Shown: in pieces, positions 18,611 to 25,936 of the stretch
Position numbering within the stretch: the first letter of the stretch is position 1
Layout: each line of letters opens with the position of its first letter
NCBI GenBank assembly: GCA_021800255.1
Contig: JAJYZC010000009.1
Location: 1 to 64,000 of the forward strand
Length of the DNA: 64,000 bases
Reading direction: 5' to 3'
Origin: Acidobacteriota bacterium
GTDB lineage: Bacteria > Acidobacteriota > Terriglobia > Terriglobales > Acidobacteriaceae
Made by a program: the position numbers and the translations under genes
The notes under the pieces: model-generated
Databases searched by the model: none
Told to the model about the DNA's origin: nothing
The model's input: only the letters and a program-made list of their open reading frames with translations

Positions 18611-19786
18611 TCAGTCGGCCAAAGCCGGGTGCGCGCTTTTTTCCGGCCACGGCGGCAGCAGCTTCAACAGCACCCACAGGAAGAACAGCGGCAGGAGGAT
18701 CAAACCAATCGCCACCAGCAGGCCCTCATGCGTCGCCAGGGCCATCTTGTAGGTGGTGTAGCCCAGGAAACTCTTCGAAAACAACTGCCCCCCGATGACC
18801 ACGTTCCAGCGCATGGCGAAGACGCTGATCAGGATCAGCGCGCCGCAAAAAGCGTAGATGCGCTTGCGGGCGATCTCAGGCATCTTGACGATCTGCACCA
18901 GGAACAACAGAACCAAGGGCAGCACCGTGCCCAGCCAGATTTGCAGCACAATCTGCGAGAAGTAGAGTTTGGTGTGCACCAGAAAGTCCAGGGTGCGGAA
19001 GGACTCGTCGGCCAGGTAGATGCGGTGTACCAGGTCGAGCATCTCCAGGGTGAAGTCGATGACGAAGATGTAGAACATGTACTTGGCCACGGTGTCCAGG
19101 CAGAGCATGTCGATCTTCTGGCCGCGCATTTTGGTAAGCGCCATGTAGAGGAGCATGACGGCGGCGATGCCTGAGACCATGGCGGAAAAGATGAAGACAA
19201 CAGGCATCAAGGGCGACGACCACCAGGGATTGGCCTTGAGCGAGCCGAAGATGAAGCCCACGTAGCCGTGCAGCAAAACGGCCGAGGGAATGCCGACCAG
19301 GGTGACGATCCAGCCCGCCTTCTCGTCCACGCGCAGCGAGCCCTCGCTGATGTTGCTGGAGCCCAGCGTAAGGATGCGGTAGATGAGGCGCTTGATCCCC
19401 GTGGTTTGTTGCGACCACAGCACGATTTCGCGGCGGTAGTCGAGCCATATCTCGAACAGCAGCACCGCCATCAAGTACCAGAGGTAGATGTAGCCGAACA
19501 TGGCCATGGCCGAAGTGTCGTGGGGGGTGAAGTACATCTCGTAGCAGCGCTCCGGATGGCCGAGGTGAAACAGCAGCGGCAGCGGCGCGACGATCAGGAA
19601 GGCGAGAGCCGTGAGCATCGCCAGCCGGTAGGTGGGCTTCACCGCCTCCACGCGGAAGATGCGCTCCAGCGAGGCCAGAATGAAAGCTCCCGCCACCAGC
19701 CCCGTAATGTAGGGATACAAAACGATCAGTATGCTCCAGTAGAGCCTGATCTCGTTCGGATACATGTAACCTTCCACGCCGGTCAT
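18611..19786 (-). CDS. NrfD/PsrC-family quinol-interacting membrane subunit
   Basis: 391 aa with about ten TM helices, the NrfD/PsrC/DsrP-type subunit that exchanges electrons with menaquinol. Recognisable features are the early YITGLVAGAFILASLERIF helix, FHLGHPERCYEMY and LHGYVGFIFGSLKANPWWSSPLMPVVFIFSA. It is the third gene of a cytochrome-ferredoxin-NrfD set, in the same order as dsrJOP, but no DsrMK, molybdopterin or catalytic subunit is adjacent. A 44-bp C/T-rich spacer with tandem CCTAGTC words separates it from the ferredoxin gene. Confidence 0.9.
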   Translation of the reverse strand: MTGVEGYMYPNEIRLYWSILIVLYPYITGLVAGAFILASLERIFRVEAVKPTYRLAMLTALAFLIVAPLPLLFHLGHPERCYEMYFTPHDTSAMAMFGYIYLWYLMAVLLFEIWLDYRREIVLWSQQTTGIKRLIYRILTLGSSNISEGSLRVDEKAGWIVTLVGIPSAVLLHGYVGFIFGSLKANPWWSSPLMPVVFIFSAMVSGIAAVMLLYMALTKMRGQKIDMLCLDTVAKYMFYIFVIDFTLEMLDLVHRIYLADESFRTLDFLVHTKLYFSQIVLQIWLGTVLPLVLLFLVQIVKMPEIARKRIYAFCGALILISVFAMRWNVVIGGQLFSKSFLGYTTYKMALATHEGLLVAIGLILLPLFFLWVLLKLLPPWPEKSAHPALAD

Positions 19787-19787
19787 T

Positions 19788-19826
19788 CCTAGCTCCTAGC
19801 CCCTCAGTCCCTAGTCCCTAGTCCCT
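19788..19826. repeat. Short tandem CCTAGTC-type repeat in the operon spacer
   Basis: The spacer between the ferredoxin and NrfD genes consists mostly of variants of a 7-nt word (cctagct, cctagcc, cctcagt, ccctagt, ccctagt). Possibly a slippage-prone spacer; no known function. Confidence 0.6.
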
Positions 19827-19830
19827 TTCT

Positions 19831-20565
19831 TTACCGCACCGATCCGTCCAAATCGTTGTAAAAAACCTTGGCCCCCGTGGCCATATCCGGTTTCAAGATG
19901 TGCACGGTGTGGGTTCTCAAAAACTCGTGAATGGGATCCTTGGGATTTTTCAAGTCGGCCAGTTGCCGCGCGCCGGTGGGACAGGCTTCGCAGCAGGCCG
20001 TGGTCAGCCCCTTGGTGATGCGGTGGTAGCAAAGCGTGCACTTGTCCGCCACGTGCTTGGTGGGATGAATGTAGCGGCACCCATACGGGCAGGCCTGCAC
20101 GCAATAGCCGCAGCCCATGCAGTACTTCTGGTCGATCAGCACCACCCCGTCCGGGGTGATGAACGTCGCCCCCACCGGGCAAACCTGGGTGCAGGGCGAA
20201 TCCGCGCAATGGTTGCACAGCTTGGGAACGAAGAAGTAGATCCCGTCGGGGTCTTCGCTGACCGGGGGAAATCCCTCCTTGCCGCCGTCGGGTGAAATCA
20301 CCTGCGGCCGGTCCAGATGCCAGTCGGTACGGTGATACTCCTCCACCCAGGTGCGGAAGAATCCGTCGGGGACATCGTTTTCAGCCTGGCAGGCGCGCAC
20401 GCAGTTGCCGCAGCCGATGCACTTCGAGACATCGATCAACATACCCCACCAGTGATCGGTCATCGTGTAGTTGGGCGCGCTCTCCGGCGTCCCCGCAAGC
20501 ACCGATTTCCAGGCCACCGCGGCGGCCGGCAACAGAAGAAGAACATGGCGGCGGGTTATATTCAC
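19831..20565 (-). CDS. Tat-exported ferredoxin-like protein with four [4Fe-4S] clusters
   Basis: 244 aa electron-transfer subunit. The N-terminus (ITRRHVLLLLPAAAVAWKSVLAG) resembles a twin-arginine signal. Sixteen cysteines form four cluster motifs: CIGCGNCVRAC, CNHCADSPCTQVC, CMGCGYCVQAC, and CTLC...CCEAC. This is the NrfC/DsrO/PsrB-type pattern. The start is a GTG overlapping the cytochrome stop (GTGA) with GGGAGGT 5 nt upstream; the track start within the cytochrome gene is wrong. It should pass electrons between the tetraheme cytochrome and the NrfD subunit on the periplasmic side. Confidence 0.92.
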   Translation of the reverse strand: MNITRRHVLLLLPAAAVAWKSVLAGTPESAPNYTMTDHWWGMLIDVSKCIGCGNCVRACQAENDVPDGFFRTWVEEYHRTDWHLDRPQVISPDGGKEGFPPVSEDPDGIYFFVPKLCNHCADSPCTQVCPVGATFITPDGVVLIDQKYCMGCGYCVQACPYGCRYIHPTKHVADKCTLCYHRITKGLTTACCEACPTGARQLADLKNPKDPIHEFLRTHTVHILKPDMATGAKVFYNDLDGSVR

Positions 20566-21047
20566 TGCGCACCTCCCGCGTTGGATCCCGAACCGATGGC
20601 CGGACTGTGGGGGTTGTGGCAGGTTTCGCAAGCCACGCCGTTGGCATGCTCGGCCGCCACTACCTGCGGAAAGCCCTTGGGCCGCGCGGCGCTGGCCTCG
20701 TGACAGCGAACGCACAGCGTGGCGGTATTCGGCAAGACTGGAACCACGGCGGCCGGATTTTCAACGTGGCCTTCCAATGGCCCGTGACAGGCCTCGCAGT
20801 TTACGTGCGCGTGCGCGCCGGCGGCCTTCGTAGCCACAATGTCCGCGTGGCACTCCGCGCAGGCCTGGTGGCCGGCAAAATGCAGCGGGTTAGCGGCGAT
20901 CTCCCCAATGGCCGCTGCGCGATAGTGCCCGTATTCTCCAAATGTCTTGGGAACTACGAAGCCGCGCACCACCAGAAAGATCAGAAAGAGGACGACGAAG
21001 ATCCCCACGAACCGGAAGAGGTGTCCAGCATCCTTTAAAACGCTCAT
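20562..21047 (-). CDS. Membrane-anchored tetraheme cytochrome c
   Basis: 161 aa. A single N-terminal TM helix (FVGIFVVLFLIFLVVRGFVV) anchors a periplasmic domain with four CxxCH heme sites: CAECH, CEACH, CVRCH and CETCH. Size and layout fit small quinol-linked cytochromes such as DsrJ/NrfH/QrcA-like subunits. First gene of the electron-transfer operon; its stop overlaps the ferredoxin start. The redox partner and terminal acceptor are unknown because no catalytic subunit lies nearby. Confidence 0.9.
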   Translation of the reverse strand: MSVLKDAGHLFRFVGIFVVLFLIFLVVRGFVVPKTFGEYGHYRAAAIGEIAANPLHFAGHQACAECHADIVATKAAGAHAHVNCEACHGPLEGHVENPAAVVPVLPNTATLCVRCHEASAARPKGFPQVVAAEHANGVACETCHNPHSPAIGSGSNAGGAQ

Positions 21048-22916: not shown

Positions 22917-23149
22917 GCAGCAGCCCTCCTCGCGTAGGGTAATGGGTGAGTTTTACAAGGGCGCAAATCGATCCCTGCGCAAACGCTCGAAGGTCAGACC
23001 GAGCTTTGGCGCCGGGGGCAGGCCGCAAATCAGCCTCCTGCCGGATTAGGCCCGAGGCGGGACGGCGGGCCTACAATGAGAGAACAACGAAACCCTCGCC
23101 GGTTCGTGCTCTGCCGGGGGTAGGTATTGTCAAGCGTAGGAGCCCCGCC

Positions 23150-23422
23150 ATGTCCCACCAGGACCGGGAAAAACTCAAATTGCTGCAGCGGCTGAGGAAA
23201 GTTCGCGGCCAGTTGGACGCCGTGGAGCGCGCCCTGACAGCCGACGAGGATTGCGGCGGCCAGCTCATGCTGCTGGCCGCGGTGCGCGGCGGCGTAAACG
23301 CGCTCATGGGTGAGGTGCTGGAGACTCACATTCGCTTTCACTTGGCCGGCGGCGCTAAGGAACAGATCGCCCCCGAGTTGGCCGAAGATCTCATCGACCT
23401 GGTGCATGCCTACCTCAAGTAA
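23150..23422 (+). CDS. Metal-sensing repressor of the CsoR/RcnR family (RcnR-like)
   Basis: 90 aa all-helical tetrameric repressor of the DUF156 family. Residues at the RcnR metal positions are conserved: His3 (MSHQD), Cys35 (DEDCGGQ), His60 and His64 (ETHIRFHL). This is the Ni/Co-sensing RcnR set rather than the Cu-sensing CsoR set or the formaldehyde-sensing FrmR set. The ATG at 23150 is chosen because it places His3 correctly; the track ORF is 68 codons too long. A TACAAT -10 lies at 23072-23077. It is divergent from the porin and close to the Nramp operon, whose promoter holds a matching palindrome. Confidence 0.9.
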   Translation: MSHQDREKLKLLQRLRKVRGQLDAVERALTADEDCGGQLMLLAAVRGGVNALMGEVLETHIRFHLAGGAKEQIAPELAEDLIDLVHAYLK

Positions 23423-23594
23423 GCTCATTGATCGCTCGTCAGTGAAGCCCATCGTTCCCTCCCCTATCGCAACGGAATGACACGCGGCGGAAAACGCGAA
23501 CCATCCTCAGAAGCCGGCAGCACGATTGCTTGCGTGCCGCCCTCCGGACCGTTGCGCTCAACCGTGCCCTACCGGCGAGCGGCCGCTGCCCGTC

Positions 23595-23810
23595 TCACCG
23601 GACGAACCCCACCATTCCGAGCACGTGATAGACCAGAATTCCGCCCATCAGGATCAGATAGCCCCGGAGCGCGATCAACGAGTAGCGCACCGCCGGCGTC
23701 ATCACAATCGGCCCCAGCCCCTCGCTGGCGCACTTCTGCTCGGGCTCGTCGTCGAGGGGATGAACTACGCGAAAGTACTCCGCAGGATAGGAATTGTGCA
23801 TGGTCGCCAT
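23595..23810 (-). CDS. Small single-TM protein, last gene of the Nramp operon
   Basis: 71 aa. A soluble N-terminus (MATMHNSYPAEYFRVVHPLDDEPEQKCASEG) is followed by one TM helix (YSLIALRGYLILMGGILVYHVLGM). It starts 16 bp after the Nramp stop, on the same strand, so it is probably co-transcribed and possibly a small accessory subunit of the transporter. No family is recognised. A real gene is favoured by the operon position and the clear membrane helix. Confidence 0.6.
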   Translation of the reverse strand: MATMHNSYPAEYFRVVHPLDDEPEQKCASEGLGPIVMTPAVRYSLIALRGYLILMGGILVYHVLGMVGFVR

Positions 23811-23826
23811 GAGTCACCTCGTCAAG

Positions 23827-25140
23827 TCAAGAAAAAAGATTGGGTAGCATCACCTGCGCCGCCAGCAGCAGCGACAGGGCGAAGAGGACGGCAATGATCG
23901 TCCAGTTGATCCAGTTATTCCAGCGCCGGTTCACCCATTGATCGCCCAGTAAGGCGCGATCGTTGAGCAGCAGTTGCAGAAAAATGATGGCCGAGGGCAG
24001 CATCAGCCCGGCCAGAACCTGCACGCTGACGATGACCAGTTGCAAGGGCATGCGCGGGATCAGCACCACGCCCGCCGCCGCGGCCACGCAGCCCGTGTAG
24101 ACGGTGTAGAACCCCGGCGCCTCCCAAAGCTTCTTGTGCAGCGAATGCGGCCAGCCGCGCACTTCACCGTAGGCCCAGGCGCTGGCCAGAGAAATCGCTG
24201 TCGTGCCCAGCACCGCCGCGTTCACCATCAGCAGCAGCACGCCGTTGCGCATCCATACCCCGGCGAAGGGAACCAGCGCCCTGGCCATCTGCGCCGGGTC
24301 GGCAAATACGATGCCGCGCCGCAAGCCGGACTCGCCCACGATCATCATGGCCCCGGCCACCAGCACCGTGAAGGCCGCGCCGATCAATGTGTCCAGCCGC
24401 GCCCACTTCAGATCCGAGAAGCGCAGCCGCTTTTCGGCCACGCAGCTTTGCTGGAAGAAGAGCTGCCAGGGAGCGATGGTCGTGCCGATAATTGCGATGA
24501 TTAAAAAGACCAGGCTGCCGGTAAGCGGGCCGGGCGGCAGGTTGGGAACCACGCTGTTGTAGGCCACCGCGCCCCAGTGCGGATGCGCCATCGCCGCCAA
24601 CGCAAACCACGTGAGGTCCAGCAGGCAAAGAAAGATCACCGTGCGCTCCCAGCGCAGGTAGCTTCCGGTCACGACCATCAGAACAAGGCCAGCGGCCGCG
24701 GCCGGAACTGAGATTTGCGGCCGAACGCCCACTGCGCCCAAGGCCAGCGAGATGGCGGCAAACTCCGTAACCAGGGTGAGAAAGTTTACGATCAGCAGAT
24801 CGGCCAGCGAAAACCGTCCCCACCACTTGCCGAACCGCTCGTAGATCATGGCCGCGTGGCCCTTGCCGGTGGCGATGCCCAGGCGCGCCACCATCTCCTG
24901 GACGAAGTAGGTGATGGGCAGCAGCAAGAGCAGAATCCACAGCAAATGCAGGCCGTATTGCGCGCCCGCCTGCACATACGTGGAGACAGCCCCGGCATCG
25001 TTGTCGGCCTCCATCACGATCAGGCCGGGCCCAAAGACCATCAGAAACGTAAGCAGGCTGCGCTGCCAGCGCGTGCGTACACGCACGCCCGCGCTGGATG
25101 GCGCTTTCACCTCTCTTACCTGCGCATTGGCCGTTTGCAT
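23827..25140 (-). CDS. Nramp (SLC11)-family divalent metal transporter with a non-canonical metal site
   Basis: 437 aa with about 11 TM helices. Family features: GPGLIVMEADNDAGAVSTYVQAG in TM1, ARLGIATGKGHAAMIYERFG, and GTTIAPWQLFFQQS in TM6. In canonical Nramps TM1 has DPGN and TM6 has A-x-x-MPH; here the asparagine position reads Ala (DAGA) and the methionine position reads Ala (IAPW), so Mn/Fe selectivity may be lost. Similar replacements are reported, as I recall, for Nramp-related Mg transporters. The start at 25140 has AGGAG 7 nt upstream. It sits between two tiny genes in a probable three-gene operon. Confidence 0.9.
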   Translation of the reverse strand: MQTANAQVREVKAPSSAGVRVRTRWQRSLLTFLMVFGPGLIVMEADNDAGAVSTYVQAGAQYGLHLLWILLLLLPITYFVQEMVARLGIATGKGHAAMIYERFGKWWGRFSLADLLIVNFLTLVTEFAAISLALGAVGVRPQISVPAAAAGLVLMVVTGSYLRWERTVIFLCLLDLTWFALAAMAHPHWGAVAYNSVVPNLPPGPLTGSLVFLIIAIIGTTIAPWQLFFQQSCVAEKRLRFSDLKWARLDTLIGAAFTVLVAGAMMIVGESGLRRGIVFADPAQMARALVPFAGVWMRNGVLLLMVNAAVLGTTAISLASAWAYGEVRGWPHSLHKKLWEAPGFYTVYTGCVAAAAGVVLIPRMPLQLVIVSVQVLAGLMLPSAIIFLQLLLNDRALLGDQWVNRRWNNWINWTIIAVLFALSLLLAAQVMLPNLFS

Positions 25141-25165
25141 CGGTCCGCTCCTGCCTTCATTGAAA

Positions 25166-25342
25166 TCAGGCGCAAAGCAGCCGCGCCGGCGGCTCCTCAA
25201 CGTCAGGGGGTTGCTGGCCGGCGGGCTTACAGTCCGCAATCCATTTCGCGGCCAGCGGCTGCGCAGGATTTCCGGTTGTCACCCACGCGCACGAGAGCGG
25301 CGCGGAACGCCGAATGGGAAAATTGAGAATGACTTTGGTCAT
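25166..25342 (-). CDS. 58-aa small protein upstream of the Nramp gene
   Basis: Too short to be listed separately in the track, which shows a longer frame. The ATG at 25342 is preceded by a very strong Shine-Dalgarno sequence (GGAAGGAGG, 5 nt). The product, MTKVILNFPIRRSAPLSCAW..., is soluble with two cysteines. It ends 25 bp before the Nramp start. No family is recognised. Possible roles are a metal chaperone, a regulator of the transporter, or a leader peptide. Confidence 0.6.
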   Translation of the reverse strand: MTKVILNFPIRRSAPLSCAWVTTGNPAQPLAAKWIADCKPAGQQPPDVEEPPARLLCA

Positions 25343-25936
25343 GACAGCCTCCTTCCGGCACACGCGCCCGTATGCCTGCGCGAACCTGAGAACAGATCCG
25401 CGCACGGAGGCGCAGTTGGCCAGACTTTCGTCTTAGGAGGGGCGGGCAGAACCGCAGGCCGTGCGTGATTTCCTGGTGGTTCCCACTCACTCACTCGATC
25501 TCAAACAAGCACTGTGAGGAGCGGGCGGGAGGCACGTCAGCGAGGCTAATCGCGGCGTCCCGAAGGTCCGTCACAGCGCAGGAGAGCGCTCCGTAGTTCG
25601 CACGCCGTGCGCGCCGGTAGCGCGGCGGTGTGCAGGCTTCGCGGAGGTTCTAGCGCAATTTCGGTTTTCATAGAGTCTCATTGGCGCGTCCACCGTTCAC
25701 AGGCAAACGCTGCCAACGCCTTTATACCATACCCTGAGTGGGTATGGGAAGCCGAACGCAAAAAAAATCTGCTGTGCGCATCTACCCGTGCGCATCTACG
25801 CCCTGCCTGGATGTCTGGATATGATGAGTGACGGCCGAAGGGCAAGCAAACCGGTTCGTGCACCTTCCCCAAGGGAGCGACGAACGGTTCGCTGCGCTGC
25901 GATTTCTTCCTGAGTTCAGGGAGCCGGGGATCGCGT
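25343..25936. other. Long leader/intergenic region of the Nramp operon
   Basis: 594 bp between the small gene at 25166 and the HIT gene. The operator and -10 box at 25721-25747 imply a 5' leader of about 370 nt before the first small gene. I looked for M-box and yybP-ykoY riboswitch signatures and found none. Plus-strand ORFs here lack start context. Confidence 0.5.
25721..25747 (-). promoter_or_regulatory. CsoR/RcnR-type operator overlapping the Nramp operon promoter
   Basis: Perfect inverted repeat CCATACCC-TGAGT-GGGTATGG (25727-25747). CsoR-family operators are ATACCC...GGGTAT-type palindromes. Immediately downstream on the minus strand is TATAAA (25721-25726), a good -10 box, so a bound repressor would block the promoter. 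The RcnR-like gene at 23150 encodes the obvious candidate repressor. Confidence 0.7.

Follow-up and report, generated by a model that had tools for sequence, protein, structure and literature searches.

A CsoR-family repressor that may couple excess transition metal to Mg2+/Mn2+ import through an OprB-family porin and an NRMT-type transporter in Acidobacteriaceae

The genes that CsoR-family sensors are known to switch on serve export or detoxification. The window analysed here, a stretch of 64,000 nucleotides from an acidobacterial genome of 3.36 Mb, carries such a sensor beside an Nramp operon. Why a repressor of this family should stand at the promoter of an Nramp gene, what else it might control and which signal it answers are the questions raised by this locus. 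The first-pass annotation labelled the sensor RcnR-like and proposed that an efflux-type sensor is wired to the Nramp operon through a palindrome in its promoter, the transporter either having an exporter-like role or importing a different metal from that which the sensor detects.

The sensor gene (23150–23422, plus strand) encodes a protein of 90 amino acids, matching PF02583 with E=7e-17 and 62 bits against a curated cut-off of 22.8. Together with Cys35, which is present in 56/57 collected homologs, this match places it in the CsoR/DUF156 family. It is the sole PF02583 member of the genome, and a single CsoR-family gene is also found in many other operator-bearing genomes. The palindrome lies exactly where it had been described: a perfect 8-bp inverted repeat, CCATACCC-TGAGT-GGGTATGG, occupies 25727–25747 and directly abuts the minus-strand TATAAA (25721–25726) that is the probable -10 region of the Nramp operon promoter. 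The repeat alone is unremarkable because simulated windows give similar counts; 16 perfect 8-bp inverted repeats with 3–8 nt spacers occur in the window and 6–16 in each of five Markov-1 simulations, and we therefore rejected its statistical significance by itself. The pattern ATACCC-N5-GGGTAT is matched without mismatch only once in the genome, at this site. A single further match with one mismatch, at C29 (L002), is not recognisably at the promoter of a related gene and was rejected as a second operator. The Nramp start codon follows ~590 nt downstream of the operator, after a long leader with a 58-aa ORF. A consensus promoter scan at the site returned no sigma-70 consensus pair, in line with a degenerate -35 region in the window, where relatives have TTGAC.

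According to our comparisons, it is the conservation of the repeat and not the repeat itself that is remarkable. In Acidobacteriaceae, the same operator is found about 370–605 nt upstream of the orthologous Nramp genes, with 0–2 mismatches in same-genus orthologs, and it is kept in 20/21 rows of the window's clade, L023 being the exception. In relatives the operator usually lies inside the promoter, with TTGAC beside it and TATRRTA after it, or in the form TTGAC-operator-GGTAYAA, so that it takes up the -35/-10 spacer, as in the typical sequences TTGACTATACCCTAGGGGGATATGATACAA and TTGACAATATCCTACGGGGGTATGATAGAAA. In ten loci, about half, a divergent csoR starts at the NRMT operator (L007, L008, L010, L011, L015, L022, L040, L042, L045 and L047). 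Where csoR is located elsewhere it usually has its own copy of the operator, and genome G292 shares the arrangement of the window, with csoR convergent and downstream of the NRMT gene. Across the order, ATAYCC-N5-GGRTATG is matched in 109/298 genomes versus ~14 hits for a reversed control pattern. Among 30 loci cut out of this order-wide search, csoR stands beside the site in 17, of which 13 also have a porin and 3 an NRMT gene. The matches at L134 and L140 fall within predicted genes and were discounted as chance hits. The first-pass annotation had named a lack of conservation upstream of orthologous Nramp genes as one result that would overturn its proposal; the palindrome is conserved there, and csoR often diverges from it. 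The comparisons thus argue strongly for a regulatory link of repressor, operator and Nramp gene, and they agree with the proposed wiring of a sensor from a derepressor family to an Nramp transporter.

The transporter itself (23827–25140, minus strand; PF01566) belongs to the NRMT class. Its best PDB match is EleNRMT, at 222 bits versus 50 for MntH, and the NRMT site residues are present: the TM1 Asp, the TM6 Thr, and the changes from Met to Ala and from His to Trp, with one TM1 position that is Ala in the window and Gly in EleNRMT. Such Asp, Thr, Ala and Trp residues mark the sites of NRMT-class transporters, which are uncoupled Mg/Mn importers (PMC8806188). Judged by these features, the window Nramp is an NRMT-type (Mg2+/Mn2+) transporter. 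It could transport Mn instead of Mg, and an outgroup protein from A. capsulatum favoured Mn (PMC4072509). The regulatory link to Mg2+ that accompanies this class is found in the orthologs, not in the window itself. An M-box Mg2+ riboswitch (RF00380) lies upstream of the gene in 11 ortholog loci (L020, L024, L028, L029, L031–L033, L036, L046, L048 and L052), and orthologs beyond the window's clade often have it at the operator's place. That the Nramp protein exports the sensed metal would agree with the classical efflux targets of CsoR-family repressors, but NRMT-class transporters are characterised as importers, and M-box switches turn import on at low Mg; we hold the exporter-like role to be very improbable. 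The other option, that the metal taken up differs from the metal sensed, is instead favoured, because the transporter is NRMT-like and its orthologs carry Mg2+ riboswitches.

The window leader has no Rfam family at gathering score and only chance-level matches at E<=10, no M-box was found in 19 scanned CsoR-operator loci, and none was found anywhere in 15 searched CsoR-operator genomes. In the transporter tree, the clade of the window, in which 20/21 rows have the operator, is set apart from the M-box rows with support of 100/99. L022 and L045, which have the operator and a divergent csoR, group with the M-box row L024; therefore the type of control changed more than once or was lost. In the Gemmatimonadetes locus L046 (L046:5318–9311), an M-box precedes the porin and NRMT genes, csoR runs the other way, and a site resembling the operator lies between the two. 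With these elements lined up one after another, the locus is possibly an intermediate or under double control. A locus of Dyella, in the Gammaproteobacteria, has a divergent csoR, an operator-like site, Nramp and an OprB-family porin (L082:7040–12819), from which the wiring may extend beyond Acidobacteriota. Like the M-box-controlled NRMT Mg2+ transporters of C. acetobutylicum and EleNRMT, the window protein belongs to a transporter class with M-boxes upstream of orthologs. Unlike them, it has a protein repressor, from a family answering transition metals or electrophiles, in place of the M-box.

Two small proteins accompany the transporter. The 58-aa ORF of the leader (25166–25342, minus strand) has the consensus LxCxWxxTGxPxxPLxCxW...LCA, with conserved Cys and Trp and a C-terminal LCA. 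Its 35 distinct homologs lie behind CsoR operators, in NRMT or porin leaders, and tblastn found none of the family in M-box-bearing loci. The second is a single-TM protein of 71 aa (23595–23810, minus strand), a probable partner of the NRMT with no Pfam or NCBIfam match, whose homologs lie downstream of the Nramp match in 69/77 loci. In ~45–50% identical homologs, mostly from Actinobacteria but also from Dyella and Alicyclobacillus, the same sequence forms an in-frame C-terminal extension of Nramp. Because of this fusion, the 71-aa protein is probably a split-off C-terminal helix of the transporter.

A further target was overlooked in the first-pass annotation. An OprB-family porin (PF04966; 21417–22916, minus strand) is divergent from csoR, is the gene that usually diverges from it throughout the genus and the family, and is more widely conserved beside it than the Nramp gene. 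Next to it, at 18611–21047 on the minus strand, an NrfD-like protein, a 4Fe-4S protein and a multi-CXXCH cytochrome stand in a row as a membrane electron-transfer module. The operator between csoR and the porin is degenerate in the window, which reads CTGCCGGGGGTAGGTAT at 23111–23127 versus ATACCGGGGGTRGGTAT in genus mates. Among 44 genomes of the genus, 8 have an NRMT match at E<=1e-100 (7 clear orthologs with 79–100% identity and one 43% paralog), and 39 have csoR. The NRMT gene is therefore an optional member of the csoR-porin regulon. The same counts lend themselves to a circuit in which the csoR-OprB porin pair is the main target, the NRMT a passenger and the porin, not Mg uptake, the point of response; csoR with its usual porin partner is, after all, far commoner in the genus. 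Yet the NRMT, where present, keeps the operator almost without exception, and the porin adjoins the NRMT also in the M-box loci L024, L029, L033, L046 and L052, so that pore and importer belong together. We regard a porin-centred response as possible but rather doubtful, and favour joint control of both genes.

The regulon may reach an efflux pump as well. An MFP-RND pair of the CusA/CzcA family follows the operator in G009; it has the motif DFGMVVDGA...EN, which we take to be of the divalent type, and in G272 csoR and the operator adjoin the same CzcA-type pump. Besides csoR and the divergent porin, the operator thus probably controls a CzcA-type divalent efflux pump in related genomes, although the link to the pump rests on these two. 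The pump bears on the nature of the signal. A copper sensor would account for operators that resemble those of copper CsoR, for example at B. subtilis copZA, and the C-H-H site would have a counterpart in T. thermophilus CsoR. However, these genomes encode the true C-H-C homologs as separate proteins (L087, L110, L180, L182 and L183) and the linked pump has the divalent-type motif, which makes a response to Cu(I) unlikely.

His3, Cys35, His60 and His64, which had been presented as the RcnR metal set, are all in the translation, but as a set they do not describe RcnR, since the six-coordinate Ni/Co site of RcnR lists Glu63 and not His60 (PMC7055735) and residue 63 is Phe here. Of the octahedral site (N-terminal amine, His3, Glu34, Cys35, Glu63 and His64), the window protein has Asp34 and Phe63 at two positions; almost every homolog has F, L or H at position 63, and only 22/57 have His3. 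C35, H60 and H64, on the other hand, are essentially invariant among RcnR/FrmR-like homologs. The locus resembles RcnR-rcnA of E. coli and DmeR-dmeF of rhizobia in that its CsoR/DUF156 repressor has Cys35 and His64 and a promoter beside metal-transport genes contains the operator. It differs in its target, an NRMT importer and a porin rather than RcnA or a CDF exporter, and in its operator, where ATAYCC-N5-GGRTAT before NRMT, porin or csoR replaces TACT-G6-N-AGTA and control of rcnA. The absent Glu63, the unconserved His3 and the ATACCC-type operator rule out an RcnR identity, and the RcnR-like label was dropped.

FrmR is nearest to the window sensor by profile and by solved structure, scoring 79 bits versus 50 for RcnR among NCBIfam profiles, with both under the cut-off (133 for FrmR). 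It is not a FrmR in the strict sense, in which Pro2 accompanies Cys35, as it has Ser2 and a score below that cut-off. A sensor of formaldehyde or another electrophile, acting through Cys35 like FrmR of Salmonella, would fit this kinship and the Pro2 of 10/57 collected homologs. The window's Ser2 speaks against it, because a P2S change impairs formaldehyde sensing by FrmR (PMC5016687), as do His64 in place of the Glu64 of FrmR and targets that comprise metal transporters and a pump of CzcA type; neither frmA nor any other formaldehyde-detoxification gene was seen at the operators. Such a signal is decidedly unlikely. In cells, Zn and Co both elicit a response from the E64H variant of FrmR, which has the same C35/H60/H64 set (PMC4528141, PMC5016687). 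By analogy with this match, the most likely inducer would be a divalent transition metal, Zn-, Co- or Ni-like.

From these observations we infer the following mechanism. The metal-free repressor would bind ATAYCC-N5-GGRTAT operators inside promoters and block RNA polymerase at its own gene, at the divergent OprB-family porin and at the operon of leader, 58-aa ORF, NRMT and 71-aa protein. Release from the DNA would follow when a divalent transition metal in excess, Zn, Co or Ni most likely, binds Cys35, His60 and His64. Derepression would then yield CsoR, a pore in the outer membrane and, in the inner membrane, an uncoupled importer of Mg2+/Mn2+, and the larger supply of Mg/Mn might compete against the intruding toxic metal. 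This competition is the likely gain, because the NRMT imports Mg2+/Mn2+ instead of exporting the sensed metal. We give the whole circuit, a metal-sensing repressor acting on its own gene, the porin and the NRMT operon, with excess metal raising Mg/Mn supply, a probability of roughly 0.55. Counted against it are the counter-intuitive derepression of an importer by metal and the degenerate -35 region and csoR/porin operator of the window. A comparable pairing is MnoP and MntH of Bradyrhizobium, an outer-membrane channel and an Nramp-family importer tied together under the metal regulator Mur. MnoP is a Mn porin (PMC6011978). Unlike that system, the present one has a porin of the OprB family, a regulator of another family and the opposite expected sign of response.

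In our literature search, no paper linked CsoR with NRMT, and in the few papers with both RcnR and Nramp, title and abstract gave no sign of such a link. If the circuit is true, a Mg2+/Mn2+ importer and a porin would be under a CsoR member in an operon that is under a riboswitch elsewhere, which is a changed regulatory logic, and defence by metal competition would be a testable proposal. In a study of Granulicella, no MntR-type control was found and an unknown regulator was inferred to govern Mn homeostasis (PMC7315648); the csoR circuit is a concrete candidate for this missing regulator. The fuller proposal is more tentative, and we place it somewhat short of even odds: on sensing a surplus of divalent transition metal, a CsoR-family protein would turn on Mg2+/Mn2+ import across both membranes, through the OprB-family porin and the NRMT, as a metal-competition response that replaces Mg2+-riboswitch control in Acidobacteriaceae and involves two undescribed small proteins. 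This suggests that cells of some soil Acidobacteria meet toxic metals by altering their magnesium/manganese supply.
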